This document shows, piece after piece, positions 6,813 through 34,683 of a stretch of DNA of 47,464 bases. The notes under the pieces are model-generated. The model was given only the letters and a program-made list of their open reading frames with translations, ran no database searches and had not been told where the DNA came from. Position 1 is the stretch's first letter. Each line of letters starts with the position of its first letter. Source of the stretch: a virus; IMG/VR virus record IMGVR_UViG_3300032287_004322, positions 1 through 47,464 of that record. One strand, written 5' to 3'. Made by a program: the position numbers and the translations under genes.

Positions 6813-8426
6813 ATGAGTAAAATAATTAAATTTGATCGCGACGCGAAAGAAAAACTACAGGCAGGTATTAAGAAAGTACATGATGCCGTAACTGTAACTA
6901 TGGGTCCTTTTGGACGTAATGTATTGATTGAAAAAGAACATGGACAAGTAGCTTCAACTAAGGATGGTGTTACAGTTGCTAAAACCATTACTTTAGAAGA
7001 TCCAATTGAAAATATGGCTGCAACTGTTATTAAGCAGGCTGCTCAAAAAACAGTTGATCAAGCAGGTGATGGTACAACTACATCTACGTTGTTAGCATAT
7101 AGTATTGCAAACCAAGCACTTGAATTAACTTCAAAACCATCGGTTAATGTTACTCAAGTAAAATATGGCATTGAAAATGCTGTTAAGAATATCGTTAGTG
7201 AGTTAAAAACAATGTCTATAGACATCACAGATGAAAAACAAATCAAACAAATTGCTACTCTCTCAGCTAATGGGGATGAGGAAATTGGAGAATTAGTAGC
7301 TACTGCTATTAATAAAGTAGGAAGAGATGGAGTAGTAACCGTAGAAGAATCTCGCTCAGGCGAAACATCACTTGAGGTAGTAGAAGGTCTTCAATTTGAT
7401 CGTGGTTATAAATCACCTTATATGGTGACTGATAATAACACAATGCAAGCTGTTCTTAATGATGCTTTAATTTTGTTGTTTGATGGTAGAATTAGTGCTG
7501 TAAAAGATTTACTTCCTATTCTTGAGCGTGTATCGCAAGAAAACAAATCATTGCTTATTATTGCTGAAGATATTGATGGTGAAGCACTTTCAACACTCAT
7601 TGTAAATAAGATGAGAGGTATTTTAAAAGTAGCTGCTGTTAAGGCTCCTGACTTTGGTGAGCGCAGGACTTTGATTTTAGAAGACATTGCTATTGTAACA
7701 GGTGGTACTGTAGTTTCACCTCAAAAAGGAATGAAACTAGAAAAATTCAGTACTGATTGGTTTGGTCATGCTAGAACTATTACTATAGGTAAAGAAACAA
7801 CTACTATTGTTGATGGTAAAGGTAAGACTGAACAAATTAATACTCGTATTGAAGAGTTGAAAGCACAAATCGATACTAATAATTCACCTTATGAAGTAGA
7901 ACGTTTACAAGACCGTTTAGCTAAAATGGTTGGTGGTGTAGCTATCATCAATGTAGGTGGTAGTACTGAAGTTGAAATGAAAGAAAGAAAAGATCGTATT
8001 GATGATGCTCTTCAAGCAACTAAAGCAGCACTTGAAGAAGGTATTGTACCTGGTGCAGGTATGGCCTTATTTAATGCTAAAAATGCTATTAATAATAGAG
8101 ATAATAGTGATTCTGGTTTAGGAGGACAAATTGTATATAAGGCATGTTCTACCCCACTTAATAAAATCCTAACCAATGCTGGTGAAGATTATTATGAATG
8201 GATTTCAGTGTTTAAAAACTCTAAGAATGCAGTTCCCGATATTACAGGTGAAAGAACAGTAGATGCCTTTAAATCAGGTATTATTGACCCAACTAAAGTA
8301 GTACGCTGTGCACTTGAAAATGCAGCAGCAGCTGCAGTTACACTTTTAATGACTGAATGTGTAATTCATGATAAACCAACAGATAAAAAGAAAGAAGAAG
8401 TTGATTTGTCAGGATTTGGAATGTAA
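6813..8426 (+). CDS. groEL: Chaperonin GroEL
   Basis: 537 residues (E. coli 548). ATP-binding DGTTT lies at residues 86-90, DDALQATKAALEEG carries the hydrolytic Asp (E. coli D398), and VTMGPFGRNV is near the N-terminus. The apical and intermediate domains align over the whole length. The usual Gly-Gly-Met tail is reduced to SGFGM. With its own GroES it should form a complete folding chamber, perhaps for phage capsid proteins or for the many sugar enzymes encoded downstream. No truncation is seen. Confidence 0.97.
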   Translation: MSKIIKFDRDAKEKLQAGIKKVHDAVTVTMGPFGRNVLIEKEHGQVASTKDGVTVAKTITLEDPIENMAATVIKQAAQKTVDQAGDGTTTSTLLAYSIANQALELTSKPSVNVTQVKYGIENAVKNIVSELKTMSIDITDEKQIKQIATLSANGDEEIGELVATAINKVGRDGVVTVEESRSGETSLEVVEGLQFDRGYKSPYMVTDNNTMQAVLNDALILLFDGRISAVKDLLPILERVSQENKSLLIIAEDIDGEALSTLIVNKMRGILKVAAVKAPDFGERRTLILEDIAIVTGGTVVSPQKGMKLEKFSTDWFGHARTITIGKETTTIVDGKGKTEQINTRIEELKAQIDTNNSPYEVERLQDRLAKMVGGVAIINVGGSTEVEMKERKDRIDDALQATKAALEEGIVPGAGMALFNAKNAINNRDNSDSGLGGQIVYKACSTPLNKILTNAGEDYYEWISVFKNSKNAVPDITGERTVDAFKSGIIDPTKVVRCALENAAAAAVTLLMTECVIHDKPTDKKKEEVDLSGFGM

Positions 8427-12712: not shown

Positions 12713-14173
12713 ATGAAAGAAGGTTATATTCCTCAAGCACAACGTAAAAAAATTCTATTACTTTGTGACGACATTAGAATGACAAGTGGTATTTCCACTA
12801 TGGCTCGTGAAATTGTTCTTGGTACGGCTCATCACTATAATTGGGTGAATGTAGGAGGTGCTATTGATCATCCTGATAAGGGTAAACGTTTTGATCTTAA
12901 TGAAGATACTAACAAAACAACCGGCATTACAGATGCTAGTGTTACCTTATACCCTATTGATGGTTATGGTTCTCCTGAATTAGTTAGACAACTATTACAA
13001 ATTGAACAACCAGATGCAATAATGTTCTTTACTGATCCAAGATATTGGGTTTGGTTATTTCAAATGGAACATGAACTTAGGAAATATATTCCTATGATTT
13101 ATCTTAATATTTGGGATGATTTACCTTACCCAATGTATAATAAATCGTTTTATGAGTCGTGTGATACACTACTTGCTATTTCCAAACAAACAGAAAATAT
13201 TAATAAATGGGTATTAGGTCCTGAATTGACTGCTGAGAAAATAATTAAATATGTTCCACACGGGATTAATGAAAATATTTTCTTCCCTATTAATTCCTCT
13301 AATACTGAATATCTTGCCCTTCAAGATTTTAAAAAGCAACTATATAAAGATAAAACATATAAATTTAATCTTCTATATAATGCCAGAAACATTCGCCGCA
13401 AATCAGTTCCAGATTTAATGTTAGCTTGGAAAATATTCATTGATACACTAACAGAAGAACAAGCAAAAGAATGCATATTTACATTACATACTCAACCAAT
13501 AGATGACAATGGAACAGATTTATTAGCAGTGCAACAAATGTTATTTGGTAACAACCCTAAATACAATCTTATCTTTTCTAATGGCCGCTACCCAGCAAAC
13601 GTAATGAATCTACTTTACAATACAGCTGATGTTGTTGCTTTGATTAGTAGTAATGAAGGCTGGGGGCTATCACTTACAGAAGGAATGATGTGCGGTAAAC
13701 CAATTATTGCTACTGTAACAGGGGGTATGCAAGATCAAATGCGTTTTGAAGATGAAAATGGAAATTGGATTCAATTCACAGAAGAATTTGGTTCTAACCA
13801 TAGAGGTAAATACAAAAAACATGGTAAATGGGCGTACCCCGTATTTCCGAGTAACATTAGCTTGATTGGTTCTGTTCCTACTCCTTACATCTATGATGAT
13901 AGACCTGATCCACATGATATAGCTAAACAAATAGAAGCTGCATATAATACAAAAGTTAATTCCCCTGAAATATATCAGGAACAATGTAAAGCAGCTCGTG
14001 AATGGGTTACATCAGATGAATCAATGCAATCTGCAAGGTGGATGGCTAAAAACATAATTGAAGGAATTGATGGAACATTCCAAAAATGGATTCCAAGACA
14101 TGCATTTGAACTAATTCATGTAGAACCACTCGAACAACCTAAACATTTTGTAAAATTCCCTATAGCACAATAA
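12713..14173 (+). CDS. Glycosyltransferase, GT4-like
   Basis: 486 residues with a GT-B fold. A Rossmann start KKILLLCDDIRMTSGIS is followed by an acceptor-side half and a C-terminal GT4 half with the nucleotide-sugar motif E-x7-E (EGWGLSLTE, E315 to E323), then GMMCGKPIIATVTGG. It transfers a sugar from a nucleotide donor; donor and acceptor are unknown. First gene of the 22-kb sugar locus, 2 nt before a second GT4. Codon use here (CGT, GGT) is like the replication genes, unlike the later sugar genes. Confidence 0.88.
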   Translation: MKEGYIPQAQRKKILLLCDDIRMTSGISTMAREIVLGTAHHYNWVNVGGAIDHPDKGKRFDLNEDTNKTTGITDASVTLYPIDGYGSPELVRQLLQIEQPDAIMFFTDPRYWVWLFQMEHELRKYIPMIYLNIWDDLPYPMYNKSFYESCDTLLAISKQTENINKWVLGPELTAEKIIKYVPHGINENIFFPINSSNTEYLALQDFKKQLYKDKTYKFNLLYNARNIRRKSVPDLMLAWKIFIDTLTEEQAKECIFTLHTQPIDDNGTDLLAVQQMLFGNNPKYNLIFSNGRYPANVMNLLYNTADVVALISSNEGWGLSLTEGMMCGKPIIATVTGGMQDQMRFEDENGNWIQFTEEFGSNHRGKYKKHGKWAYPVFPSNISLIGSVPTPYIYDDRPDPHDIAKQIEAAYNTKVNSPEIYQEQCKAAREWVTSDESMQSARWMAKNIIEGIDGTFQKWIPRHAFELIHVEPLEQPKHFVKFPIAQ

Positions 14174-14174
14174 T

Positions 14175-15473
14175 ATGAAACCACTAGTTTTTATAAGCTG
14201 CCCTATTGACACATACTCTGGATATGGGGCTCGTTCTCGAGATATTGCCTTATCAATTATTAAATCAGAAAAATATGATATAAAAATTATACCTCAAAGA
14301 TGGGGAGCTACTCCATTTGGGTTTTTACAGCCGAATAATCCTGAACACAAGTTAATGATTGATTGTATTTGGAGTCAACCCCAACTTCCTAAGCAACCAG
14401 ATTGCTGGATTCAGGTTACTGTACCAAATGAATTCCAACCTATTGGTAAATTTAATATTGGTATTACAGCAGGTATTGAAACTACAATATGTGCTCCTGG
14501 GTGGCTTGATGGTATTAATAGAATGGATCTTACTTTGGTATCTTCAAATCATGCTAAAACAATATTTGAAAACAGTGCATTTGAAGAAAAAAATCAACAA
14601 GGACAAGTAGTGCGTCAAATTAAACTAGAAAAGCCAATTGAAGTATTATTTGAAGGTGTTAACGATAATATCTACCAAAAAATAGATGCTGTTAATGATA
14701 GTGAATTGTGGGATATAGTAGATGATATTAAAGAAGAGTTTAATTTTCTTTATGTTGGCCATTGGTTACAAGGTGAATTAGGTCAAGACAGAAAAGATAC
14801 AGGTATGTTAATTAAAACATTCCTTGAAACATTTAAAGGAAAAAAACAAAAACCTGGTCTTATTCTTAAAACATCTAGTGTTAATCACTCTATCATGGAT
14901 AGAGAAGAAATATTAGGTCGTATTAGGAAAATTCAATTGTCTATTGAAGATAAGGATTTACCCAATGTCTATTTAATCCATGGGGAATTATCAGATAATG
15001 AAATAAATGAATTGTATAATCATTCCAAAGTAAAAGCACACGTATCCTTTACCAAGGGAGAAGGTTATGGACGACCATTACTTGAAGCCTCAGTCTCACA
15101 GAAACCAGTTATAGTAAGTAACTGGAGTGGTCATTTAGATTTTCTTGATCCTGAAATGTCAGTTTTACTTCCGGGAACAATAAATCAAATTCATCCTTCA
15201 GCTGTAGTACAAGACATGCTATTACCTGAAAGTGGTTGGTTTACTGTTGATTATAAAAAAGCATCTGAAGTATTAGAAGATGTTTATAAGAATTATAAAA
15301 AATATGTTGATGGGGCAAAGAGACAAGCTTACCGTTCACGTACAGAATTTAATTTAGATAAAATGGGAGAAAAATTAGTCTCTATTTTAGAGGATAAAAT
15401 ACCTAAACCAGTACAATTAAAACTCCCTCAACTAAAGAAAATTGAATTACCTAAACTTAAAAAAGTAGACTAA
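14175..15473 (+). CDS. Glycosyltransferase, GT4-like
   Basis: 432 residues, GT-B type. N-terminal ISCPIDTYSGYGARSRDIAL (glycine-rich acceptor loop) and C-terminal FTKGEGYGRPLLEASVSQKPVIVSN with the E-x7-E pair (E296, E304). The C-terminus has a Lys/Leu/Pro repeat (KLPQLKKIELPKLKK) that may be a flexible or basic tail. It lies directly behind the other GT4 and is probably a functional partner. Confidence 0.87.
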   Translation: MKPLVFISCPIDTYSGYGARSRDIALSIIKSEKYDIKIIPQRWGATPFGFLQPNNPEHKLMIDCIWSQPQLPKQPDCWIQVTVPNEFQPIGKFNIGITAGIETTICAPGWLDGINRMDLTLVSSNHAKTIFENSAFEEKNQQGQVVRQIKLEKPIEVLFEGVNDNIYQKIDAVNDSELWDIVDDIKEEFNFLYVGHWLQGELGQDRKDTGMLIKTFLETFKGKKQKPGLILKTSSVNHSIMDREEILGRIRKIQLSIEDKDLPNVYLIHGELSDNEINELYNHSKVKAHVSFTKGEGYGRPLLEASVSQKPVIVSNWSGHLDFLDPEMSVLLPGTINQIHPSAVVQDMLLPESGWFTVDYKKASEVLEDVYKNYKKYVDGAKRQAYRSRTEFNLDKMGEKLVSILEDKIPKPVQLKLPQLKKIELPKLKKVD

Positions 15474-15868
15474 TGCAAGAATCACTCATTAATTGCCCCA
15501 GATGTGAAGGAAATGCTTGCCAAGAAATATCTAATGATAAATTAACTGTTTGGAGTTGTTTTGGATGTGGTTTCACATCCAATTCAACTTTAACAGAAGA
15601 TAAACTTGAAGAAGTAGAATCTGTAATTCCTCAACTATATAAGGATCTTAAATTTCAAGATAAAAAAGGATTATATTGGTATCCTTCAACTGTAATTTTG
15701 GAAGATAAATCAATGATATTTGCTGATGGTAGATTTAAAGATGAATGGAAATGGGCAGCAGTACAATCTAAAGAAGAAAAAGCAGATATGTCAACAGTAA
15801 AATACTTTGAAGAAAAAGATTTTATAGAAGCACTTGATTATATAGGCTTCTTTGAAAAACAAAAATAA
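15473..15868 (+). CDS. Zinc-ribbon protein, unknown
   Basis: 131 residues. N-terminal CPRC (near residue 8) and CFGC (near residue 29) make a zinc ribbon. The remainder is acidic with a Trp/Tyr-rich central patch (KGLYWYPSTVILED) and a helical end. It overlaps the preceding glycosyltransferase stop by 1 nt (TAATG). Unknown role, and oddly placed between glycosyltransferases. Confidence 0.65.
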   Translation: MQESLINCPRCEGNACQEISNDKLTVWSCFGCGFTSNSTLTEDKLEEVESVIPQLYKDLKFQDKKGLYWYPSTVILEDKSMIFADGRFKDEWKWAAVQSKEEKADMSTVKYFEEKDFIEALDYIGFFEKQK

Positions 15869-15873
15869 GTTAT

Positions 15874-16530
15874 ATGAAAATTAGTTATGGTTTAACAGCC
15901 TGGATTGAACATCTAGAATTAGAAAGACTGCTAAATTTTTTAGCTCCAAGAATAGACAAGGAGGATGAAATTGTAATAGTTTATGACCAGAATAGAGCTA
16001 CTCCTGAAGTTTTAAAGGTAATGAGTGATTTTAAAAGGGAAAACTATAGTTTTCATCCTTTTAATTTTCAACAAAACTTTTTAGAAAATAAAAATTATTT
16101 AGGTAGTCTCTGTACAGGTGAGTATATTTTTCAAATAGATGCAGATGAATTACCTAGTGAATTTTTGCTTGCTAACATAAAAGTAATAATAGAAGCTAAT
16201 CCTGTAGACGTATTCATTGTTCCCCGAATTAACATAGTTGACGATCTTACAGAAGAACACATTAAACAATGGGGATGGAGAGTAAATGAAAGCGGATGGG
16301 TTAATTTCCCTGATCCTCAAAGACGTATCTACAAAAATGACCCAACAATCCAATGGCGTGACCCAGAAGGAAAACCTCAAGTACACGGAATGGTAGAAGG
16401 ATATAAAACATATGCTACATTACCCTTTGAAGAAGAATGGTCTTTATATCATATGAAGCATATAACAAAGCAAGAATATCAAAATAATCTATATACTACT
16501 GTTCTTAGTGGAGGAAAAAGAAATGACTAA
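15874..16530 (+). CDS. Glycosyltransferase, GT2-like
   Basis: 218 residues of GT-A type. It has a Rossmann-like start and the metal/nucleotide DxD motif in IFQIDADELPSE near residue 90, then a substrate loop with many Trp (QWGWRVNESGWVNFPDPQ). Probably inverting. The C-terminus (HMKHITKQEYQNN) overlaps the next gene, whose Shine-Dalgarno-like GGAGG is embedded here. Confidence 0.82.
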   Translation: MKISYGLTAWIEHLELERLLNFLAPRIDKEDEIVIVYDQNRATPEVLKVMSDFKRENYSFHPFNFQQNFLENKNYLGSLCTGEYIFQIDADELPSEFLLANIKVIIEANPVDVFIVPRINIVDDLTEEHIKQWGWRVNESGWVNFPDPQRRIYKNDPTIQWRDPEGKPQVHGMVEGYKTYATLPFEEEWSLYHMKHITKQEYQNNLYTTVLSGGKRND

Positions 16531-17482: not shown

Positions 17483-18394
17483 ATGAATAAAATATTAGTA
17501 ACTGGTGGGAGCGGAATGGTAGGAAATTCCCTAAAAAAATATATTCCGGATGCTATTTATATCTCCTCTAAAGATTATAATCTAACCTCAGAAACACAAG
17601 TGTCATTAATGTTTAATGATATACAACCTGATGTTGTTATACATTTAGCAGCTCGAGTAGGAGGTATAATGGATAATATAAACCATCCAGCTGAGTATTT
17701 TGATGATAACATTATAATGAATACTTTAGTATTAAAACATTCTTATATACATAACATAAAAAGATTTATAGGAATATTAAGTACATGCGCCTACCCAGAT
17801 ATAATAAATGAATATCCTATACCAGAAACTGAATTACATTCAGGTCCACCTACAAAAACAAATCTAGCTTATGGATATGCTAAACGAGCACTATCTGTAC
17901 AAATAAATGCTTATAATCAACAATATGGAACTAAATATCAATACTTAATACCTTGTAACTTGTATGGAGAATATGATAAATACGGAGATAATAGTCATTT
18001 TATAGCGGCATTAATTAAAAAAATTCATACTGCTAAATCTAAAAATGAAAATAAAATACTATTATCTGGAGATGGGACTCCATTAAGACAATTTATGCAT
18101 TCTGATGATTTAGCTTATGTAATTAAATATTGTTTAGAAAATAACATTTATGATAACATGAATGTATCTGTACCTGAAAATCTTTCAATAACAGAAATGG
18201 CTGAAATTGCTCTTAAGGCATGTGGTATTGAAGGTATAGAAATAGAATATGATATAACAAAACCAAATGGGCAATATAAAAAAGATGTATCTACTAAATT
18301 ATTAAAAGAAAAAATACCATCATTTAATCCTATAAAATTAGAAGAAGGAATTAAACAAACATATAATTATCTAATTAAAAATAACATACTATGA
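17483..18394 (+). CDS. fcl: GDP-L-fucose synthase
   Basis: 303 residues (family about 310-320). NAD(P) motif VTGGSGMVG, the family HLAARVGGI segment, the catalytic S-T-C-x-Y-P (STCAYP), YGYAKRA (Tyr and Lys) and GDNSHFIAAL with the catalytic His. It epimerises and reduces GDP-4-keto-6-deoxy-D-mannose to GDP-L-fucose. Adjacent to gmd with a 4-nt overlap (ATGA), giving the full two-step pathway. Confidence 0.92.
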   Translation: MNKILVTGGSGMVGNSLKKYIPDAIYISSKDYNLTSETQVSLMFNDIQPDVVIHLAARVGGIMDNINHPAEYFDDNIIMNTLVLKHSYIHNIKRFIGILSTCAYPDIINEYPIPETELHSGPPTKTNLAYGYAKRALSVQINAYNQQYGTKYQYLIPCNLYGEYDKYGDNSHFIAALIKKIHTAKSKNENKILLSGDGTPLRQFMHSDDLAYVIKYCLENNIYDNMNVSVPENLSITEMAEIALKACGIEGIEIEYDITKPNGQYKKDVSTKLLKEKIPSFNPIKLEEGIKQTYNYLIKNNIL

Positions 18395-19359
18395 AAGCAC
18401 TTATAACTGGAGTAAATGGACAAGATGGTTCTTATTTATCTGAACTATTATTAAGCAAAGGATATAGTATAATAGGCACTTTAAAACGCAATTCAGTAGC
18501 CGAAAACCAAACATTTAGATTAGACCCCGTATTCAATAAAATTAAATTAGAATATGCCGATTTAACAGATATGGCTTCTTTAGTTAGAATCATAAGTAAA
18601 TATATGCCTGATGAAATATATAATCTTGGTGCTCAGTCCCATGTAGCTATATCTTTTGATCAACCCGTATATACGGCTCAAGCAACAGGTGTAGGAACTT
18701 TAAATATAATTGAAGCAGCTAGACTAATTAAACCCGATGCTAAAATATATCAAGCATCTTCATCTGAAATGTTTGGTAATAATATTGACCTAGACGGGTT
18801 TCAAAGAGAAACTACCCCAATGAGCCCAGTATCTCCTTATGGTTGTGCAAAAGTATTTTCATATAATATTTGTAGGAATTATAGACATTCTTATAATATG
18901 TTTATTTCAAATGGTATATTGTTTAACCATGAATCACCTAGACGAGGTACAAATTTTGTTACAAATAAAGTATGTAAAGAAGCTGTTAAGATTAAATTAG
19001 GACTATCTAATGAATTAAAACTCGGTAATTTAGACGCAACTAGGGATTGGGGACATGCTAAAGATTATGTCAAAGCAATGTGGGAAATTCTACAACTAGA
19101 TAAACCAGATGATTTTGTATGTTCAACTGGAGTATCTCATTCTATTAGAGAGTTATGTGATTATGTATTTTCCTCTTTAGGAATGGATTGGAAAGAATAT
19201 GTTGTACAAGATGAAAAGTTTTTAAGACCTGAAGAATTACATAATTTAAAAGGAGATAATTCTAAATTAGTAAAAGCAACTGGATGGTCTTGTAGCTATA
19301 ATTTTGAAAGTATGCTAGATGAAATGATTGAGTATTGGTTAAATTATTATAAAAAATGA
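18391..19359 (+). CDS. gmd: GDP-mannose 4,6-dehydratase
   Basis: 322 residues, slightly shorter than usual (340-375). GVNGQDGSYLSELLL is the Gmd cofactor loop. The catalytic set is SSE (S125, E126), Y150 and K154; the NADP/tetramer loop NHESPRRGTNFVTNK is intact and KLGNLDATRDWGHAKDY is a family hallmark. It converts GDP-D-mannose to GDP-4-keto-6-deoxy-D-mannose for Fcl. No GDP-mannose synthesis genes are in view, so that is probably host-supplied. Confidence 0.95.
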   Translation: MKALITGVNGQDGSYLSELLLSKGYSIIGTLKRNSVAENQTFRLDPVFNKIKLEYADLTDMASLVRIISKYMPDEIYNLGAQSHVAISFDQPVYTAQATGVGTLNIIEAARLIKPDAKIYQASSSEMFGNNIDLDGFQRETTPMSPVSPYGCAKVFSYNICRNYRHSYNMFISNGILFNHESPRRGTNFVTNKVCKEAVKIKLGLSNELKLGNLDATRDWGHAKDYVKAMWEILQLDKPDDFVCSTGVSHSIRELCDYVFSSLGMDWKEYVVQDEKFLRPEELHNLKGDNSKLVKATGWSCSYNFESMLDEMIEYWLNYYKK

Positions 19360-20390: not shown

Positions 20391-20999
20391 ATGAAATATT
20401 ACTCTCAATTTAAACAGGATCAATATATATATGAAAATTATTTCCAAAATAAAACTAATGGTTATTTTGTAGATATAGGAGCATATGATGGAGAAACAGA
20501 TAGTAATTCATTATTTTTTGAAAATCTAGGATGGGATGGTGTTTGTATAGAACCAAATCCGGAAATGTTTAAAAAATTACAAAAAATAAGAAAATGTACT
20601 TATTTTCCATATGCTATATCTAATAAAGAAGAAATATTACAATTCTTTCAAATAAAAGAAGGAGGTCCTTCTACATTAAGTGGATTAGTAGAAGAATATA
20701 CTCAAGAAGCTATAGCAAGAATAAATAATCATAATGTTGATGATTTTGATTATATTAATGTGGAATGTAAATTATTTAATAATATAATAAATGTTTACAA
20801 TATTGATTATCTATCTCTAGATACTGAAGGGAATGAATTAAAAATATTGCAATCTATAAATTTTAATCTATATAATATAGATATTATAACAGTTGAAAAC
20901 AATAATTATGATAATATATTCAATAATTTCTTCTCAGATAAACCATATCAATTTATTGGCAGATTAGGATGTGATGAACTTTATAAAAAAATAAAATGA
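20391..20999 (+). CDS. FkbM-family methyltransferase
   Basis: 202 residues. SAM-binding GYFVDIGAYDGETDS near residue 25, GVCIEPNPEMF with the acidic residue that binds ribose, and the FkbM mark DYLSLDTEGNE near residue 142. It would O-methylate a sugar or the glycan end. It directly follows the epimerase stop (TAAATG) and overlaps the GT10 gene. Confidence 0.88.
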   Translation: MKYYSQFKQDQYIYENYFQNKTNGYFVDIGAYDGETDSNSLFFENLGWDGVCIEPNPEMFKKLQKIRKCTYFPYAISNKEEILQFFQIKEGGPSTLSGLVEEYTQEAIARINNHNVDDFDYINVECKLFNNIINVYNIDYLSLDTEGNELKILQSINFNLYNIDIITVENNNYDNIFNNFFSDKPYQFIGRLGCDELYKKIK

Positions 21000-21808
21000 A
21001 ATTATTTATAAATAATTTTGAAAAATCAGTTTTTGAATCTTACTTAGATTCTATAAAAGATATAGATTTTTCTTTATTTGTAGATTATATACCTCAAAAA
21101 AATGAGGATTTATCTTCTATCAATATATTTGTCTTACAAGAACCAAATGAATATTTTGGATACCATGATTGGGTTATTAAAAATAAAGAATTATTTAGTA
21201 TTATACTAACATGGAGCGATAAAGTATTAAATAATTGTGAAAATGCTATATTTTTACCCTTTGGCTCTACCTGGTTAAAACCAAAACAATATGAGAAAAA
21301 TTATGAAAAGAAATTTCAAGTATCTCATGTTAGAGGAAATTTACTTAAAACTTATGGACATTCATTAAGATTTGAATACCATGATAGATCACATGAATTA
21401 AAAATTCCTTATAAATCATGGGAAGTAGCAGGTATTAGAGAGCAAATTGAAACATGTGCCGCTGCTAAATGTGAACTATTTGGAGATGCTCAATTTGGAG
21501 TTGTTATAGAAAATACAAGCCACAGAGGATATTTTACAGAAAAAATAATGGAGATGTTTTTATTTAAAACAATTCCTGTATATTGGGGTTGTTCTAATAT
21601 AACAGATTTTTTTAGGCAAGAAGGAATTATTACATTTACTAGTATTGATGATGCTATATATCAATTAAATAATTTAGATGAATCTTATTATAATAATCAT
21701 TTAGAAGCAATAAATGAAAATTATAACAGAGCTTTACAATATATTAGTTATGAACAAAACATAACAAATAAAATTTTAGAAATATTTAAACTTAATAATT
21801 TAATATAA
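20996..21808 (+). CDS. Fucosyltransferase, family GT10
   Basis: 270 residues. The GT10 donor-binding signature is clear: FGVVIENTSHRGYFTEKI near residue 163 and FKTIPVYWGCSNITDFF near residue 190. GT10 enzymes move L-fucose from GDP-fucose, usually to O-3 or O-4 of GlcNAc or Glc. The phage makes the donor itself with gmd and fcl. Shorter than animal enzymes, similar to compact bacterial ones. Overlaps its neighbours by 4 nt and 1 nt. Confidence 0.9.
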   Translation: MKLFINNFEKSVFESYLDSIKDIDFSLFVDYIPQKNEDLSSINIFVLQEPNEYFGYHDWVIKNKELFSIILTWSDKVLNNCENAIFLPFGSTWLKPKQYEKNYEKKFQVSHVRGNLLKTYGHSLRFEYHDRSHELKIPYKSWEVAGIREQIETCAAAKCELFGDAQFGVVIENTSHRGYFTEKIMEMFLFKTIPVYWGCSNITDFFRQEGIITFTSIDDAIYQLNNLDESYYNNHLEAINENYNRALQYISYEQNITNKILEIFKLNNLI

Positions 21809-23142
21809 TGGATAAAAAACAACAAATTTTAGACTTAATTAGTGAGTATATTAAAGAGAAAAAGAGTAATAAAAAATGGGAAGCAGGAAAAGACTGGGTG
21901 CAATATGCGGGTCCATATTATGATGATAAAGAATTTGTAGCGGGTGTTGACTCTTTACTTAAAGAATGGCTTATTTTAGGAGAAAAAGGAAGAGAATTTG
22001 AACTAAAATTTGCCCCTTTATTAGGAAAAAAAGACGGAATAGTAGTAAATTCAGGTAGTTCTGCTAATTTACTTATGGTATCCCTTCTAACAACTAAAAG
22101 AGGTGGTAGTTTACCTAAAGGATCTAAATTTATAACACCAGTAGTGTGTTTTCCTACTACAATTAATCCTCTTATTCAAAATGGATTTAAACCAGTATTT
22201 GTAGATGTTACTTTACCTAACCTGAATTTAGATTTAGATCAAGTAGAAGAGTTACTACAACAAGACTCAGAAATAAAAGGTATTATATTTGCACACGTAC
22301 TCGGAAATCCGCCAGACATGGATCGACTTATGAGTATTATTAAGAAATATAATTTAATATATCTTGAAGATACTTGTGATGCTCTTGGATCTACTTGGGA
22401 TGGACAGCCATTAGGAACCTTTGGAGATATAAGTACATGCTCATTCTTCCCAGCACATCATATGACAATGGGTGAAGGTGGATTTGTAGCAGTAAACTCA
22501 GCAAAGAAAAGAATGGCATTAGCTTCATTAAGAGACTGGGGCCGTGCATGTTACTGCAACACAGCCAAACCAGGTAATGTAACGACAGGTACTGCTTGTG
22601 GATGTCGATTCGGTTCATGGTTTAAAGGAAATGAAGATATTGTATTTGATCATAGATATGTGTTTGATGAAATTGGATATAACTTGAAACCTACAGAAAT
22701 GCAAGCTGCTATGGGGTTAGTACAATTAGATAAGTTAGATGAAATGCATAGTAGGCGTAAGTATAATTTTAAAAGATTATACAATATATTTAGTAAATAT
22801 CCTGAATATTTTTATCTACCAACTGTACATGAAAAAGCTGATCCTTCCTGGTTTGGTTATTTGGTGACATTAAAAGATAAAACTCCATTTACTAAATCAG
22901 AATTAGTAGATTGTATGGAAGAGGCTAAAATTCAAACAAGATCTTACTTTACAGGAAATGCTTTATTTCATCCTGCTTATGAAGATCTTGCTAAGGAATA
23001 TGAAAATCCAAGAATGCAATTTCCTATTGCTACAAAAACAACATTAGATACATTCTTTCTAGGGGTATATCCCGGTATTACCGATGAACAATTAGATTAT
23101 ATAGAGCAAACAATAGATAAATTTTTTAAAAAATATAAATAG
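21808..23142 (+). CDS. rfbH: CDP-4-keto-6-deoxyhexose 3-dehydrase (E1, RfbH/DdhC type)
   Basis: 444 residues (RfbH about 437). PLP/PMP fold type I, but the Schiff-base Lys is His: PAHHMTMGEGG (H217/H218), the E1 hallmark. The 2Fe-2S ligands fit E1: C190, C248 and C250 give the C-x57-C-x1-C spacing, followed by C264 in ACGCRFG with about six extra residues before it. E1 removes the 3-OH of CDP-4-keto-6-deoxyglucose with electrons from an E3 reductase, making 3,6-dideoxysugars. No E3 or glucose cytidylyltransferase is in view. Confidence 0.88.
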   Translation: MDKKQQILDLISEYIKEKKSNKKWEAGKDWVQYAGPYYDDKEFVAGVDSLLKEWLILGEKGREFELKFAPLLGKKDGIVVNSGSSANLLMVSLLTTKRGGSLPKGSKFITPVVCFPTTINPLIQNGFKPVFVDVTLPNLNLDLDQVEELLQQDSEIKGIIFAHVLGNPPDMDRLMSIIKKYNLIYLEDTCDALGSTWDGQPLGTFGDISTCSFFPAHHMTMGEGGFVAVNSAKKRMALASLRDWGRACYCNTAKPGNVTTGTACGCRFGSWFKGNEDIVFDHRYVFDEIGYNLKPTEMQAAMGLVQLDKLDEMHSRRKYNFKRLYNIFSKYPEYFYLPTVHEKADPSWFGYLVTLKDKTPFTKSELVDCMEEAKIQTRSYFTGNALFHPAYEDLAKEYENPRMQFPIATKTTLDTFFLGVYPGITDEQLDYIEQTIDKFFKKYK

Positions 23143-23978
23143 TGAAATTTATTACAAAGTTTAATCTTACAGACTATTGTGATTTTGGATCACAAATGAC
23201 CCAATATGCCTCTTTAATAGCTATAGGAAAAAAAGTAGGATTACAACCTATACTCATACAGGAAACTTTAAACGGTAAATTAGGATTTTCATTAAATAAA
23301 CCCTTTGCAACTCCACTTCCTATTTATTCTTTAACAGATATTCAAGATGAAGAATGGTATGAAGTAAAAATAGATCATACTATAGAACCAGATAACAGTG
23401 TGTTTTCTCTAACCCCAGATAAGAACTATGTTATAAATGATTTATTATTAACTTTTAGTTATTTTAATGATATAGAAAAAGAAATAACAAAAACTTTTAT
23501 CTTTAAAGAAGAAATAATTAAATTTTGTGTTGATTATATTAACCAAATTAAATTATTAGAAGATGAAATATTAGTAGGTATACATTTTAGAAGAGGAGAT
23601 TACCTAATATATTCCTCTCTAAACTTATCATTAGACTACTACTATAAAGCCACTAAAACCATCCAGGAATTATTTCCTAATAAAAAAATAAAATTTTTAA
23701 TTTTTTCAAATGAAATAGAATGGGTAAAAGAAAATTTTAAAATAGATAATTGTATTTATGTTGAGGATTTAGATAGATTTAAAGATATGTGTTTGATGTC
23801 TCTATGTGATCATATAATAATAGCAAATAGTAGCTTTAGTTGGTGGGGAGCATATTTAAATCAAAATCCTAATAAAAAAATAATATGCCCTCATAACTAT
23901 TTAAATTCCCCCGGACTAAATGAAATAATTAATGGAAAATATTTTCCTAAAGAATGGATATCATTAAATGTTTATTAA
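23142..23978 (+). CDS. Fucosyltransferase, family GT11
   Basis: 278 residues. GT11 (alpha-1,2-fucosyltransferase) motif I is GIHFRRGDY near residue 147; the terminal motif is NSSFSWWGAYLN near residue 226. The N-terminus has the usual Q-x-x-Q-Y-A-x-x-x-A pattern (SQMTQYASLIAIGKK). GTG is the start and overlaps the previous stop by one base. With the GT10 gene this gives two fucosyltransferases for the phage-made GDP-fucose. Confidence 0.9.
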   Translation: MKFITKFNLTDYCDFGSQMTQYASLIAIGKKVGLQPILIQETLNGKLGFSLNKPFATPLPIYSLTDIQDEEWYEVKIDHTIEPDNSVFSLTPDKNYVINDLLLTFSYFNDIEKEITKTFIFKEEIIKFCVDYINQIKLLEDEILVGIHFRRGDYLIYSSLNLSLDYYYKATKTIQELFPNKKIKFLIFSNEIEWVKENFKIDNCIYVEDLDRFKDMCLMSLCDHIIIANSSFSWWGAYLNQNPNKKIICPHNYLNSPGLNEIINGKYFPKEWISLNVY

Positions 23979-23979
23979 T

Positions 23980-24954
23980 ATGAAAAAAACAGTATATATA
24001 ACAGGTTGTTTAGGATTTATAGGCTCATATGTGACTAGAGCCTGCTTAAAAAAAGGATGGTATGTTAAAGGTGTAGATAAAATAACTTATGCTGCTAATA
24101 AAACTCTCCTGGATGAATTTAAAGAATATGGCAATTTTTCATTTGTAAATTGTGATATAAATGATTTAAAATTTCTATATGATTGTGATTATATAATTAA
24201 TGCAGCAGCAGAAACTCATGTTGGTAATTCAATTACTAATAGTGATGATTTTATTCATTCTAATGTAAATGGAGTTCATCATTTGTTGGAATTACTTAGA
24301 AATTATAGGCAAGAAACATCTAAAACTCCTATTTTCTTTCATTTTAGCACTGATGAAGTTTATGGGGATATTGATAAAGGGGTACATACTGAAACTGACC
24401 TACTTAAACCATCCAACCCATATTCAGCAACTAAAGCAGCTGCTGATATGTTAGTTTTAGCTTGGGGTAGAACCTATAATTTACCTTACATTATAGTTAG
24501 ACCAACAAACAATTATGGTATTGGACAATATGTTGAGAAATTAATTCCTAAAGCATGTAAGATGCTTCATTTAGGAAGAAAAATACCACTCCACAATAAT
24601 GGTACCCCAATTCGCAGTTGGTTACATGCTCAAGATACTGCTAATGCTGTTATTACTATTATTGAAGCTGGGGTAGAGAATGAAATCTATAATATAGCTG
24701 GTGGATTTGAACAATCTAACTATGATACTGTTAGAAAAGTAATAAATACATATAATTTCCTAGAAAACCTAGACTACTCAGATGTAATGCCTATGGAATT
24801 TTATTTAGACTTATCATATTCTAGAATTGGACAGGATGTTCGTTATTCTTTAGATGATTCTAAATTAAGAAAATTAGGTTGGAATCCTCAAACTGAATTT
24901 AATGTTTGTATAAAAGAAATTGTTGATTATTACAAAAATAAATTTATATGGTAA
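23980..24954 (+). CDS. NDP-sugar 4,6-dehydratase-like SDR (RmlB type)
   Basis: About 324 residues. NAD motif ITGCLGFIGS, catalytic STDEVYGD (T, D and E kept) and NPYSATKAAAD (Tyr and Lys). The RPTNNYGIGQ and PIRSWLHAQD segments are also RmlB-like. It likely turns an NDP-glucose into NDP-4-keto-6-deoxyglucose. If it accepts CDP-glucose it would feed the E1 dehydrase; if dTDP-glucose, a separate deoxysugar. ATG 23980 is used; an earlier ATG at 23968 lies inside the GT11 gene. Confidence 0.83.
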   Translation: MKKTVYITGCLGFIGSYVTRACLKKGWYVKGVDKITYAANKTLLDEFKEYGNFSFVNCDINDLKFLYDCDYIINAAAETHVGNSITNSDDFIHSNVNGVHHLLELLRNYRQETSKTPIFFHFSTDEVYGDIDKGVHTETDLLKPSNPYSATKAAADMLVLAWGRTYNLPYIIVRPTNNYGIGQYVEKLIPKACKMLHLGRKIPLHNNGTPIRSWLHAQDTANAVITIIEAGVENEIYNIAGGFEQSNYDTVRKVINTYNFLENLDYSDVMPMEFYLDLSYSRIGQDVRYSLDDSKLRKLGWNPQTEFNVCIKEIVDYYKNKFIW

Positions 24955-26705
24955 GAGTAGCAGACTATGTAATTCAATTTTTAGAAAATAAAGGAATTAA
25001 ACATGCTTTTGAAGTACCAGGAGGTGGGGCTATGTATCTGAATGATGCTATAGCAAAAAGTAATATTACTCCTATATTTTGTCATCATGAGCAATCTTGT
25101 GCTATGGCGGCTGTAGGTTATTCTAAAGCAACAAATAATGTTTCATTAATAATCCCAACTTCAGGTTGTGGTAGTACAAATACAATTACCGGTATATTAG
25201 ATGCCTGGCAGGATAGTAATAAAGTATTTATTGTTTCAGGACAAGCTAATTTGAAAGAAACAACATATTATAAAGGCATCCCTTTAAGAAAACTAGGTGT
25301 ACAAGAAGTTAATATAATACCTATAATACAATCTATTACTAAATACAGTATTACTGTTACTGATCCTACTAAAATAAAATATATCCTAGAAGAAGCATAT
25401 CATCTATGTACTACTGGAAGACCAGGACCTGTATGGATAGATATTCCATTAGATATCCAATCATCTCTAATATCACCAGATGAGTTAGAATCATATAGTA
25501 TTATACCTAAAGAATCAAATATTGACTTATCTGAATTTGCTAATTTATTAAGTCAAGCTAAAAGACCAATTATAATTGCTGGAGGTGGTATTGATTCAGC
25601 TGGGGCTAGAAAAGAATTGAAACAATTTATTGAATATTATAATATACCATGTGCCGTTACCTTTTTAGGAATTGATTTTTTAGAAGAAAATCACCCATTA
25701 TATGTTGGTAGAATAGGATTAAAAGGTACTAGAGCAGGTAATTTTGCTGTACAAAATTCTGATCTTATTATATCGCTCGGTAGTTCATTAAGTGTAGCAG
25801 CAACCGGATTTAGGTATGATTTATTTGGTAGAGAAGCTAAAATAGTAGTTGTTGATATTGATATGATTGAACATACTAAAGGAACGGTTAGAATTGATTC
25901 ATTTATTGAAAAAGATGTAAAACAATTTCTTTTAGAATTTATTAATAATCCTATAGATTATAGAGTACCTAGCTTTTGGTCTTCCAAATGTCTATCATGG
26001 AAAACCAAATGGTCTCCATTCAATAGACCAGATATAAATGAATTGAATATGTATTCATTTTCTAAAGAACTAACAGAATGCACTAAAGACTTAGATTCAG
26101 TAGTAACAACAGATGCTGGTTCAGCATACTATATATTAGCTCAAAGCTTAATGAATAATACACTAATATTACCTTCAGCTCAAGGTGAAATGGGATTTAC
26201 CTTACCCGCAGCAGTAGGTATAGCAGTTGCTCAACCTGAGAGATTAGTTATTGGTGTTACTGGTGAAGGATCATTTCAATTTAATATTCAAGAATTACAA
26301 ACAATAGTACAAAATAAATTACCAATTAAATTATTTGTATTAAACAATGGTGGTTATTTATCAATTAGAAATACACAAACAAAATTATTTGAAAAAAGAC
26401 TATCAGGAGTAAATGCAGATTCTGGTATTTCCTTTCCAGATTGTAGAAAAATAGCAAATGCTTATAATTTTAAATTTTATAGAATAAATACTATACACGA
26501 ATTAAAAACACTACTTCCCGAAATATTAGCTTTGGATACTTATTGTTTATGTGAAGTTATGTGTCCTGTTACTGAAGAAATTTATCCTACATCCGCTACA
26601 ATAAAAACTGAAGATGGCAAATTAAGTTCCCGACCTTTAGAAAATATGTTTCCATTTTTAAGTGAAGAAGAATTTAAAAACGAAATGATAATTAAACCTA
26701 TATAA
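24948..26705 (+). CDS. Acetolactate-synthase-like ThDP enzyme (YerE-like candidate)
   Basis: 585 residues with full pyrimidine, central and pyrophosphate domains. The activating Glu is in FCHHEQSCAM (E48). The ThDP-Mg motif is GEGSFQFN (439 on) with NN about 28 residues later; the usual GDG is GEG. The family includes YerE, which adds a two-carbon unit from pyruvate to C4 of CDP-4-keto-3,6-dideoxyglucose, the product of E1. Finding it 1.8 kb from the E1 gene suggests that branched-sugar reaction. A role in amino-acid synthesis is unlikely here. Confidence 0.83.
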   Translation: MVRVADYVIQFLENKGIKHAFEVPGGGAMYLNDAIAKSNITPIFCHHEQSCAMAAVGYSKATNNVSLIIPTSGCGSTNTITGILDAWQDSNKVFIVSGQANLKETTYYKGIPLRKLGVQEVNIIPIIQSITKYSITVTDPTKIKYILEEAYHLCTTGRPGPVWIDIPLDIQSSLISPDELESYSIIPKESNIDLSEFANLLSQAKRPIIIAGGGIDSAGARKELKQFIEYYNIPCAVTFLGIDFLEENHPLYVGRIGLKGTRAGNFAVQNSDLIISLGSSLSVAATGFRYDLFGREAKIVVVDIDMIEHTKGTVRIDSFIEKDVKQFLLEFINNPIDYRVPSFWSSKCLSWKTKWSPFNRPDINELNMYSFSKELTECTKDLDSVVTTDAGSAYYILAQSLMNNTLILPSAQGEMGFTLPAAVGIAVAQPERLVIGVTGEGSFQFNIQELQTIVQNKLPIKLFVLNNGGYLSIRNTQTKLFEKRLSGVNADSGISFPDCRKIANAYNFKFYRINTIHELKTLLPEILALDTYCLCEVMCPVTEEIYPTSATIKTEDGKLSSRPLENMFPFLSEEEFKNEMIIKPI

Positions 26706-26706
26706 T

Positions 26707-27465
26707 ATGAATTTTTTTAAAAAAAGTAAAGTAAATAATGTCTTTTATTCTGAAGAATCAACATTAAATAAATTATCCCGATTATTAGAAACAGATAAAG
26801 GAACAGGAAATAAATATGATTTATCTTGGGGAAAAGATTGGCCTGAATTAGAATGTTGGGGTTATACAACTACTTATGAAAAATATATGTATCCTTTTAA
26901 AAAAGAAAATATTAATTTTTTAGAAATAGGGATTTGTGATAAAAGATTTCCTTATGCTTCTCCTCAGCTATGGTTATCTTATTTTAAAAATATAGATCTT
27001 TATTGTATTGATAATTTTTGGGGTCAATATTTAACAAATAAACATGATGATATTAAAAAATTAAATGATTGGGGAGTTAATTTTATTTATGCTGATCAAG
27101 GTAATTATTGTGATTGGAATGAAATTAAAGAATCAATACCAGTTAAATTTGATTTTATTGTTGAAGATGGAAGTCACTGGCCTAATCATATGGTAATTAC
27201 TCTGTGGCAATCAATAGATCTAATAAAACCGGGGGGTTATTATTTTATGGAGGACCTTCAAAACCCTGTTAATTTTAAAGGTAGTATGAAAATAGATAAT
27301 ACTTTATTAACTGAAAATTTAATAAAAACTAAAGAAACAGGAATATTTTACTCTAATTTTTTAAATGAACAACAAAATAAAGATATACAAGATAATTTTG
27401 AACTTGTAGATTTAGTTTTAGACTCTACTGAAAAGATATATTTAGCTGTTTTTAAAAAGAAATAA
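26707..27465 (+). CDS. Class I methyltransferase-like, sugar-cluster type
   Basis: 252 residues. NFLEIGICDKRFPYA (SAM loop), LYCIDNFWG (acidic second strand), FDFIVEDGSHWPNH and IKPGGYYFMEDLQ match macrocin O-methyltransferase/cephalosporin-hydroxylase-type proteins that bind SAM and metal. It would O-methylate a sugar hydroxyl, perhaps on the branched sugar. It follows the ThDP gene by 1 nt and precedes an SDR by 1 nt. Confidence 0.8.
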   Translation: MNFFKKSKVNNVFYSEESTLNKLSRLLETDKGTGNKYDLSWGKDWPELECWGYTTTYEKYMYPFKKENINFLEIGICDKRFPYASPQLWLSYFKNIDLYCIDNFWGQYLTNKHDDIKKLNDWGVNFIYADQGNYCDWNEIKESIPVKFDFIVEDGSHWPNHMVITLWQSIDLIKPGGYYFMEDLQNPVNFKGSMKIDNTLLTENLIKTKETGIFYSNFLNEQQNKDIQDNFELVDLVLDSTEKIYLAVFKKK

Positions 27466-27466
27466 T

Positions 27467-28240
27467 ATGAAAATATTAATTACTGGAGCTAATGGCTATA
27501 TAGGTAAATCATTGTATAATGCTTTAAAAGATAAACATGAAATAACTAGTATTACTAGACAAAATTTTGATTTAACTAATATTCAATCTATGATTGAATT
27601 TTTTAAAGATAAATATTTTGATATTGTATTACACTGTGCTATAGCAGGAGGAAGTAGATTAAAAGAAGATGAATGGGAAGTGATGAATACTAATCTAAGC
27701 ATATATTACAATTTACTCCAATGCCGAACCTACTATAATAAATTAATTAATTTTGGATCAGGTGCCGAAACACATGCTGCTGATGCTCCTTACGGCTTAA
27801 GTAAATTAGTTATTAGAAATTCAATAATAAATATACCTAATTTCTATAATGTAAGAATATTTGGTGTGTTTGATGAGAATGAATTAGATACTAGATTTAT
27901 AAAAGCAAACATTAAAAGATATATTGATAAGGAACCAATACAAATTCACCAAAATAAATTAATGGACTTTTTTTATATGAAAGATTTAGTTAACATAATA
28001 AAATATTATATTAATAATGGTGGTCCTAAAGAAATAGATTGTAAATATAAAAAAACATTTTCTTTAAAACAAATAGCAGATATTATTAATAGTTTAGATG
28101 GACATAAAGTTAATATAGAAAATATAAATACTGATTTAAAAGACAACTATGTGGGGGAATTTAGAGATTTAGGAATTGAATTTATAGGATTAGAACAAGG
28201 GATTAAAGAAGTATACAATAAATTAAAAAATAATACATGA
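27467..28240 (+). CDS. Short SDR nucleotide-sugar reductase/epimerase
   Basis: 257 residues, small for an extended SDR. NAD(P) motif ITGANGYIGKSL, an active-site strand NFGSGAE, and APYGLSKLVIR with Tyr and Lys. It resembles the Fcl/RmlD-type reductase group more than dehydratases. It could reduce a keto-sugar, for example the acetyl-branched product (a YerF-like step), but this is a guess from position only. Confidence 0.72.
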   Translation: MKILITGANGYIGKSLYNALKDKHEITSITRQNFDLTNIQSMIEFFKDKYFDIVLHCAIAGGSRLKEDEWEVMNTNLSIYYNLLQCRTYYNKLINFGSGAETHAADAPYGLSKLVIRNSIINIPNFYNVRIFGVFDENELDTRFIKANIKRYIDKEPIQIHQNKLMDFFYMKDLVNIIKYYINNGGPKEIDCKYKKTFSLKQIADIINSLDGHKVNIENINTDLKDNYVGEFRDLGIEFIGLEQGIKEVYNKLKNNT

Positions 28241-32642: not shown

Positions 32643-33326
32643 ATGCAGGGAATAGTAATACAAGGTCCTACTAATTATTGTAATCAAGTTGCTCCTGTAT
32701 TTAAAAATATACCTAACGTAGTTTGGTCAACATGGAAGGATGAACCACAAAAAAATATTGATTTTATAAACCAATATATTCCTGTAATTTTAAGTGATAA
32801 ACCTTCATTTCCTGGGTACCTAAATATTAATATGCAAACTGTTTCTACTTTAGCAGGTGTTAAATACCTACAAGAGAAAGGAGTAACAGAAATATTTAAA
32901 ACAAGAGGAGATATTCATATACCACATATAGATAAATTATTATCTTTATTAAAAGGAAAAAAAATTGCTTTTATGGTAATGTGTAAAGAAGGAGTAAGAT
33001 CTGATTTATACTATGAATTAGAATATCCTCATTATTCTCATGATTATCCAATGGATATAGTACTTTATGGATCTATAGATAATGTATTTAATTCTTTTAA
33101 TTTTATGGTTGATGATTGGTATACTATTCCTCCTGAATCCTTGATAGCGTATCATTTTTTCGTTGGTAAAAATTTAGAGTTTAAATTAAATTATAAACAT
33201 TTTATAGATAATAATATTTACTTTTTCCTTAATGATTGTCTTGAAAATAAAATTGAATTAACTTGGTTAAAACATAATGTAGATTTAGTTCAAATGCATA
33301 ATTCTAAAGATTACTATGAATTCTAA
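32643..33326 (+). CDS. WavE-like polysaccharide biosynthesis protein
   Basis: 227 residues from ATG 32643, which follows the previous stop by 1 nt; an in-frame ATG at 32622 would only overlap that gene. GIVIQGPTNYC, VVWSTWKDEPQ, NINMQTVSTLAGVKYL and FKTRGDIHIP are the conserved segments of the WavE lipopolysaccharide-core protein family, probably glycosyltransferases. TRGD would be the DxD-like site. Suggests the glycan resembles an LPS-type structure. Confidence 0.8.
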   Translation: MQGIVIQGPTNYCNQVAPVFKNIPNVVWSTWKDEPQKNIDFINQYIPVILSDKPSFPGYLNINMQTVSTLAGVKYLQEKGVTEIFKTRGDIHIPHIDKLLSLLKGKKIAFMVMCKEGVRSDLYYELEYPHYSHDYPMDIVLYGSIDNVFNSFNFMVDDWYTIPPESLIAYHFFVGKNLEFKLNYKHFIDNNIYFFLNDCLENKIELTWLKHNVDLVQMHNSKDYYEF

Positions 33327-34683
33327 AATAAAATTAATCATATTTGATTTAGATGGAGTATTGGTTGAAGCTAAACATATCCATTATGATGCCTTAAATA
33401 AAGCATTAGGAAAAAACTATGCTATAGAATGGAATGAACACCTTTCAACCTATGATGGCTTAAAAACTAATCAAAAATTAGAAATGCTTACATTGAGTAA
33501 AGGACTACCTCCATCAATGTATTCTGAAATTTGGAAAAATAAACAAAAATATACTTTAGAGGCTCTTCAAAATATAAGAGAATCTGTACAATTAAAAATA
33601 TGTTTAGATTCATTAATATTGCAAGGATATAAGTTAGCAGTTGGTTCTAATAGTATTAGAAAAACAGTATTAACTGTATTATCTAAATTAGGTATTATTG
33701 AATATTTTGATTTAATATTATCAAATGAAGATGTAAAAAATAGTAAACCTCATCCTGAAATATATTGGAAGGCAATGAGTATGATAGGGGTATTACCTGA
33801 AGAGGCATTAATAGTTGAGGATAGTCCTTATGGTTTACTTGCTGCTCATAGAAGTCAAGCCTATGTAATGAGAGTTGGTTCTCCAAAAGAAGTTACGTAT
33901 AATAATATAAATAAACATCTAAATAAGGAAAAAATGAATATTATACCTAAATGGGAAGATGATCAACTAAATGTTTTAATTCCAATGGCTGGAGCCGGAT
34001 CTAGATTTGAACAAGCTGGATACACATTTCCTAAGCCCTTAATTGATGTTAAAAATAAACCAATGATTCAAGTAGTAGTTGAAAACCTTAACATCAAAGC
34101 TAATTATATCTATATTGTACAGAAAAAACACAGGGAAAAATATAATCTAGATACTCTATTAAATTTAATTACTCCCGGATGTAAAGTAGTAGAAGTTGAT
34201 GGTATTACTGAAGGAGCAGCATGTACCGCTTTATTAGCTAAAGAATACATTAATACTAATTCTCCTTTATTCTTTGCAAATTCAGACCAGTCTGTAGAAT
34301 GGGATTCAAATGAATTTATGTATAAAATGCAGGAAACAAATGCTGATGGAGGTATTGTAACATTTAAAGCAATCCATCCTAAATGGTCATTTGCCAAAAT
34401 AAATCAACATACTGGACTAGTTGAAGAAGTGGCTGAAAAAAATCCAATCTCAGATAATGCAACTGTAGGATACTATTATTGGAAACATGGTTCTGACTTT
34501 GTAAAATATGCTGAGGAAATGATTGGGCAGAATATTCGCGTTAATAATGAATTTTATGTTTGTCCTGTATTTAATCAAGCTATTAAAGATGGAAAAGAAA
34601 TTAGAACATTTAATATAGATAGAATGTGGGGATTAGGAACTCCTGAAGATTTAAAATACTATTTAGAAAATTTTAGTAAATAG
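33316..34683 (+). CDS. Fusion: HAD phosphatase + sugar nucleotidyltransferase
   Basis: 455 residues in two parts. Residues 1-200 are a HAD hydrolase of the beta-phosphoglucomutase type: nucleophile FDLDGVLVEA, GSNS near 115, KPHPEIYWKA and EDSPYGLLAA. Residues 217-455 are a nucleotidyltransferase: LIPMAGAGSRF, FPKPLIDV and ANSDQSVEWD. One protein could act on a sugar phosphate and then activate it with an NTP. It ends the sugar locus. The base (CTP, GTP, UTP or dTTP) cannot be read. Confidence 0.85.
   Translation: MNSKIKLIIFDLDGVLVEAKHIHYDALNKALGKNYAIEWNEHLSTYDGLKTNQKLEMLTLSKGLPPSMYSEIWKNKQKYTLEALQNIRESVQLKICLDSLILQGYKLAVGSNSIRKTVLTVLSKLGIIEYFDLILSNEDVKNSKPHPEIYWKAMSMIGVLPEEALIVEDSPYGLLAAHRSQAYVMRVGSPKEVTYNNINKHLNKEKMNIIPKWEDDQLNVLIPMAGAGSRFEQAGYTFPKPLIDVKNKPMIQVVVENLNIKANYIYIVQKKHREKYNLDTLLNLITPGCKVVEVDGITEGAACTALLAKEYINTNSPLFFANSDQSVEWDSNEFMYKMQETNADGGIVTFKAIHPKWSFAKINQHTGLVEEVAEKNPISDNATVGYYYWKHGSDFVKYAEEMIGQNIRVNNEFYVCPVFNQAIKDGKEIRTFNIDRMWGLGTPEDLKYYLENFSK

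Follow-up and report, generated by a model that had tools for sequence, protein, structure and literature searches.

A phage glycan cluster with an RfbH-type dehydrase next to a YerE-like carboligase: a probable route to a carbon-branched 3,6-dideoxyhexose

What sugar would a phage make with an RfbH/E1-type iron-sulfur (Fe-S) 3-dehydrase next to a YerE-like thiamine diphosphate (ThDP) carboligase? The two genes (named here by their start positions, 21808 and 24948) lie in the virus record IMGVR_UViG_3300032287_004322, which was analyzed over its whole 47,464 bases (the window). They belong to a single-strand glycan cluster at about 12.7-34.7 kb that holds glycosyltransferases, several nucleotide-sugar short-chain dehydrogenases/reductases (SDRs), RfbH, an RmlB-like SDR, a short SDR and two ThDP enzymes, of which one is full-length and the other is encoded by two genes (Table 1). 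Phage genes flank the cluster on both sides: those for a T4-type DNA polymerase, a clamp loader and a viral GroEL at one end, those for thymidylate synthase and a protease of the head-maturation type at the other. Judged from these flanking genes, the contig is viral in origin. In our reading (probability roughly 0.8) the window would encode the later part of a nucleotide-sugar pathway, ending in a carbon-branched 3,6-dideoxyhexose. A preliminary description of the locus had raised this possibility, and families, catalytic residues, trees and gene context agree with it. Together with the donor genes found in related phages these make independent lines, all read from sequence, by which the branched-dideoxysugar reading is well supported.

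Gene 21808 is an intact open reading frame (ORF; 21808-23142). Its product scores 458.7 bits with the NCBIfam RfbH model (NF011936), above the curated cut-off of 423, and 349 bits with E1 in PDB (3bcx). In the 3bcx alignment H217 corresponds to E1 His220, which replaces the lysine that binds pyridoxal phosphate (PLP), and C190, C248, C250 and C264 correspond to the four [2Fe-2S] cysteines Cys193, Cys251, Cys253 and Cys261. The His-for-Lys switch in the preliminary description was thus confirmed, and its C-x57-C-x-C ligand spacing is exact (C190-x57-C248-x-C250). The sole difference from E1 is the spacer to the fourth cysteine, x13 in place of x7. All five residues are kept in every viral homologue with more than 37% identity (88 ORFs, some of them from overlapping loci). 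In the tree, the 76 viral Fe-S sequences come together as a single clade (support 100), and with E1 and 45 bacterial Fe-S sequences they make up a larger one (support 95), so that the 21808 product stands with the Fe-S enzymes and not with Fe-S-less PLP enzymes. The position of this single viral clade beside bacterial RfbH/E1 suggests that the gene was transferred once, long ago; phage and bacterial RfbH are about 40% identical. Two phage loci (L003 and L007) have no Fe-S RfbH and carry instead a Fe-S-less, His-bearing homologue that is sister in the tree to genes of YerE-bearing bacteria.

Gene 24948 is likewise an intact ORF (24948-26705), and its product has all three ThDP-enzyme domains. 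The closest PDB match by sequence is JanthE (8rph) at ~34% identity; it scores 358 bits and the runner-up 236. A profile made from nine phage copies gave 453 for JanthE and 311 for the next PDB match. In a fold search with the predicted structure, ranks 1-6 were all JanthE; this model (mean pLDDT, the predicted local distance difference test score, 74.8, with some poor loops) was used for the fold only and not for the active site. In a tree of 109 proteins, JanthE, 75 bacterial rows and 29 phage rows fall into one clade (support 100), with E. coli IlvB, IlvI and Gcl outside. The phage rows are spread over several lineages of this clade. One lineage joins JanthE itself, and its member in L022, found in a like gene context, scores 572.7 bits against JanthE. 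JanthE is classed as a YerE-like enzyme (PMC12188165), and within the decarboxylase superfamily the use of isolated ketones is known from no subclass other than the YerE-like lyases (PMC12247030). By sequence, fold and phylogeny, the 24948 product is YerE-like and not an ordinary acetolactate synthase or a member of another decarboxylase family, an assignment made through JanthE as the YerE-like reference. Thus neither of the two groupings that the preliminary description had named as refuting was seen: RfbH falls with Fe-S enzymes and the ThDP protein with a YerE-like one. The description of the protein as acetolactate-synthase-like holds in part: its best NCBIfam model is indeed that for the large subunit of acetolactate synthase (364.8 bits), but the cut-off of 538.35 is missed and the nearest solved relative is JanthE.

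The genes expected around such a pair were examined in IMG/VR loci. After removal of near-duplicates there were 29 non-redundant phage loci with YerE, of which 27 contain Fe-S RfbH and 27 the RmlB-like dehydratase. A gene that makes an alpha-keto acid is present in 22 of the 29, compared to 0/40 loci without YerE (Fisher p about 3e-12) and 0/78 control loci without YerE centered on GDP-mannose 4,6-dehydratase (GMD). These donor genes, located just downstream of phage YerE, encode an HpcH/HpaI aldolase, a ketopantoate hydroxymethyltransferase, an acylating acetaldehyde dehydrogenase with a DmpG-type aldolase, or Ldh_2. They fit the preference for hydroxy-keto acids as donors that has been reported for ErwE (PMC12247030). 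In one phage a 3-dehydroquinate-synthase-like gene lies near the YerE-like gene (L036:16045-17067).

The preliminary description also pointed to nearby genes for the 4,6-dehydratase and the final reductase, and both candidates hold up. The RmlB-like product of gene 23968 keeps the catalytic STDEVYG and YSATK motifs (STDEVYG in 74/74 viral homologues), and its ten best PDB matches are all dTDP-glucose 4,6-dehydratases (dTDP, deoxythymidine diphosphate). The short SDR (gene 27467) closes an RmlB-[ThDP]-SDR unit in 19 phage loci, and a homologue is found immediately after YerE in the bacterial loci L094, L095 and L103. Between the ThDP enzyme and the short SDR lies gene 26707, copies of which follow YerE in L003 (64% identical) and L031 (61%). 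By eye, its motif LEIGICDKRF suggests a methyltransferase using S-adenosylmethionine (SAM).

From the families, catalytic residues, gene association and phylogeny we infer the following substrates, nucleotide, step order, product and destination. The RmlB-like enzyme would convert a host nucleoside diphosphate (NDP)-glucose, most likely dTDP-glucose, into NDP-4-keto-6-deoxyglucose. The RfbH-type pyridoxamine phosphate/[2Fe-2S] enzyme would then take off the hydroxyl at C3, a host reductase providing the electrons. The YerE-like enzyme would decarboxylate an alpha-keto acid and add the acyl unit to the C4 ketone to give a tertiary alcohol. The short SDR would reduce the branch ketone, which the 26707 product may methylate, and the cluster glycosyltransferases would attach the finished sugar.

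The alternative that survives best, although we consider it unlikely, is that the same chemistry runs on cytidine diphosphate (CDP) sugars, as in the yersiniose synthesis to which the preliminary description pointed; the host would supply CDP-4-keto-6-deoxyglucose and the phage RmlB-like gene would serve another sugar. YpYerE and ErwE do use CDP-3,6-dideoxy-4-keto-glucose (PMC12247030), and RfbF/RfbG stand beside most close bacterial YerE relatives. The nearest bacterial relatives of the 24948 product (43-50% identity) are in many cases arranged as RfbF-RfbG-RfbH-x-YerE or close to it, which is the yersiniose-type layout, and 12 of the 14 bacterial genomes checked pass both the RfbG and the RfbF cut-offs. 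Among 75 bacterial YerE loci, RfbF occurs in 44, RfbG in 36 and phage-type RmlB in 0, a zero count biased by the use of a phage sequence as the RmlB probe. The phage loci are different: RfbF/RfbG were found in 0/35 viral YerE loci, whereas the RmlB-like gene and RfbH-type matches are each present in 32/35. No NCBIfam match to RfbF or RfbG above cut-off was obtained in 22 phage records (the window and 21 others); as the window is a fragment, the two genes may still lie elsewhere in the genome or in the host. The RmlB-like gene lies directly after RfbH in 43 cases and directly before YerE in 16. In phage locus L092, RmlA (419.9 bits, cut-off 360.65) and RmlB (366.1, cut-off 365.1) immediately precede RfbH. 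Because RfbF/RfbG were not found in the phage loci and RmlB-RmlA adjoin RfbH in L092, a dTDP or uridine diphosphate (UDP) sugar is likelier than a CDP sugar, and phage RfbH probably acts on one of the former. The CDP link of the preliminary description was therefore not borne out, the dehydratase being of RmlB type.

A second and still less probable alternative is that the product of RfbH and RmlB is a plain 3,6-dideoxyhexose of the paratose/tyvelose type, formed via the epimerase-like gene at 19356, while the ThDP enzyme acts on another sugar of the same glycan. The presence of this tyvelose-epimerase-like SDR (recognized by eye) and of some RfbH+RmlB loci without YerE would be consistent with it. 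But the epimerase-like gene is found in only 4/80 RfbH loci, and 51 of the 57 non-redundant phage loci with RfbH+RmlB have a ThDP carboligase of some kind. In each of the 19 loci in which RmlB and the short SDR are no more than six genes apart, a ThDP carboligase sits in between. The occupants of this slot come from three superfamilies: YerE-like, E1-alpha/beta or a split mini-transketolase, all known or proposed as sugar-branching enzymes (PMC12247030). A close relative of the window cluster (L015; RfbH 87%, RmlB 79%) has an E1 pair where the window has YerE, and L080 and L083 share 95% of RfbH and differ in their ThDP enzymes. The window itself has an E1-alpha/beta pair as its second ThDP enzyme; a related pair occupies the place right after RmlB in other phages. 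This pair belongs to PHROG 34187 ("unknown function"), with a 68-69% identical pair in L045.

The split mini-transketolase (about 205 + 157 aa) occurs in L017, L018, L029, L032 and L083, and also in the control loci L207, L209, L210 and L212; it is common in phage sugar clusters with or without RfbH. GMD control loci without RfbH contained no YerE and no E1 gene but a split transketolase in 9/72, and the transketolase-RfbH link is therefore weaker than the YerE-RfbH link. In six loci (L040, L041, L052, L054, L058 and L070; by Pfam for L040 and L054, the rest by similarity) the gene directly after RmlB encodes a B12-binding radical SAM protein, for which sugar C-methylation is possible. For aquatic phages more widely we lean, with less confidence than for the window, towards a modular branched-dideoxysugar line. 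Its conserved core would consist of the RmlB-like dehydratase, an Fe-S RfbH from the clade confined to phages and the short SDR, yielding a keto-dideoxysugar on dTDP/UDP and not CDP. The swappable ThDP slot, drawing on three superfamilies and often accompanied by its own donor genes, would lead to many different, mostly undescribed branched sugars.

It is very unlikely that the 24948 product is an acetolactate synthase boosting host valine/leucine synthesis and unrelated to RfbH, as its best NCBIfam model and a virus survey that files ilvB as an auxiliary gene of amino-acid synthesis (PMC8226683) might imply, since the score is short of the cut-off, the clade of JanthE and all phage enzymes does not include IlvB, IlvI or Gcl, and the genes sit inside sugar clusters beside RfbH/RmlB, often with keto-acid-making genes. 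Phage acetolactate synthase records were rejected as precedents, as they are mostly small unannotated fragments or bacterial contigs. One of them, from Campylobacter phage A11a (MG065691.1 88777-90375, L206; marked UNVERIFIED), is at a distance of zero from E. coli IlvB in the tree and looks like contamination.

Several observations weigh against the branched-dideoxysugar reading. The genome is known here as a fragment. The RmlB-like product scores 296.8 bits with TIGR01181, under the cut-off of 365.1, and its base-binding loop "PLHNNG" (LHN for IYG) is unlike that of RmlB. Base-loop residues differ from RmlB throughout the RmlB-like clade, and the loop comparison gave no nucleotide assignment. 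The ThDP motif of the 24948 product is GEG, not GDG; the catalytic Glu48 and the NN motif are present, and GEG is found too in 6 viral and 6 bacterial relatives. No glucose-1-phosphate nucleotidyltransferase was found in most of the 13 phage records searched with PF00483. These negatives are not firm because a nucleotidyltransferase domain in the window itself, at 33316, escaped the search although hmmscan detects it. This domain is fused to a beta-phosphoglucomutase-like haloacid dehalogenase domain (33316-34683; an 82% identical copy is in L036), and the fusion could be an NDP-sugar feeder. The preliminary description had suggested looking for an E3 reductase; neither E3 nor a 2Fe-2S ferredoxin (Fer2 domain) was found in 13 phage records (the window and 12 others), and the electrons for RfbH could come from the host. 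Some YerE loci (L006:11818-12975, L002, L053, L073 and L090) encode an LdpA-like protein of ~385 aa with 4Fe-4S domains that might pass electrons to RfbH. The window yielded no donor-making gene; for this reason the donor is most likely pyruvate, giving by analogy a two-carbon branch as in yersiniose.

The features of the cluster are listed in Table 1. Outside it, GroEL (6813-8426) and a GTP cyclohydrolase (405-1040) are both phage-encoded.

Table 1. Annotated features of the glycan cluster in the window
Feature	Coordinates	Strand	Basis
Three glycosyltransferases, upstream (12713, 14175, 15874)	12713..16530	+	phrog_2170; PF00534, PF00535
GDP-fucose-synthase-like SDR	17483..18394	+	NF047922, 207.4 bits (cut-off 500 not reached)
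GDP-mannose 4,6-dehydratase-like SDR	18391..19359	+	TIGR01472, 364.8 bits (cut-off 415)
Tyvelose-epimerase-like SDR	at 19356		Family by eye; generic SDR matches
Glycosyltransferase family 10-like, candidate NDP-sugar user	20996..21808	+	PF00852, 28.5 bits
RfbH/E1-type PLP [2Fe-2S] sugar 3-dehydrase, 444 aa	21808..23142	+	NCBIfam NF011936, 3bcx alignment, residues, tree
Glycosyltransferase family 11-like	23142..23978	+	PF01531, 93.6 bits
RmlB-like NDP-glucose 4,6-dehydratase, 328 aa	23968..24954	+	TIGR01181, PDB matches, STDEVYG and YSATK motifs
YerE-like ThDP carboligase, 585 aa; Glu48, GEG 439-441, NN 466-467	24948..26705	+	JanthE match, fold, tree
Protein of 252 aa without assigned family	26707..27465	+	No Pfam/NCBIfam match; copies after YerE
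Short SDR, 257 aa, candidate branch/4-keto reductase (YerF role)	27467..28240	+	Weak RmlD-type matches; position
Second ThDP enzyme, E1-alpha-like half, 198 aa	29639..30235	+	PF00676, 52.8 bits
Second ThDP enzyme, E1-beta-like half, 178 aa	30245..30781	+	PF02779, 31.3 bits

Among the closest known systems is the CDP-yersiniose A pathway of Yersinia pseudotuberculosis (DdhA-DdhB-DdhC-DdhD, YerE, YerF), in which, as in the phage, an E1-type Fe-S 3-dehydrase adjoins a YerE-like carboligase and a possible reductase SDR. The phage differs in its diverged genes and in having an RmlB-like dehydratase, with no RfbF/DdhA, RfbG/DdhB or DdhD detected. With JanthE (Janthinobacterium sp. HH01), ErwE and PpYerE the phage enzyme shares the domain plan and the catalytic Glu; at its low identity to JanthE, and with GEG in place of the CDG or GDG of YerE-like lyases, it is a candidate by sequence. 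In antibiotic clusters, other ThDP superfamilies are used or proposed for the same step, namely the alpha-KADH2 and split-transketolase branching enzymes (kibdelomycin KbDH, miharamycin TK; PMC12247030). Short relatives of both occupy the slot after RmlB in phage loci, as minimal two-gene versions (about 200 + 160-180 aa) of putative function.

The preliminary description knew of no phage with such chemistry. This is not correct for RfbH as such, which virome surveys list in phages (PMC10653327, PMC11295528); cyanophage S-H68 has a gene annotated RfbH, and Synechococcus phages S-H68 and S-B43 carry RfbH at 40% identity. For the YerE-like step in phages, no report was found in the literature searched, and no Synechococcus phage record is among the YerE-like matches. 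What is new is the occurrence in phages, a switch of nucleotide that is probable, and the modularity of the slot; the type of reaction is not.

For biocatalysis, the phage loci provide a new and varied group of carboligases that are likely to accept ketones. Auxiliary genes labelled "acetolactate synthase" in viruses may have been wrongly assigned to amino-acid metabolism. Branched-chain dideoxysugars are rare bacterial surface sugars with few characterized pathways. Since dozens of phage contigs carry the committing enzymes and donor-making genes, host or virion glycans may be remodeled by phages, and the sugars used for this purpose may be undescribed.

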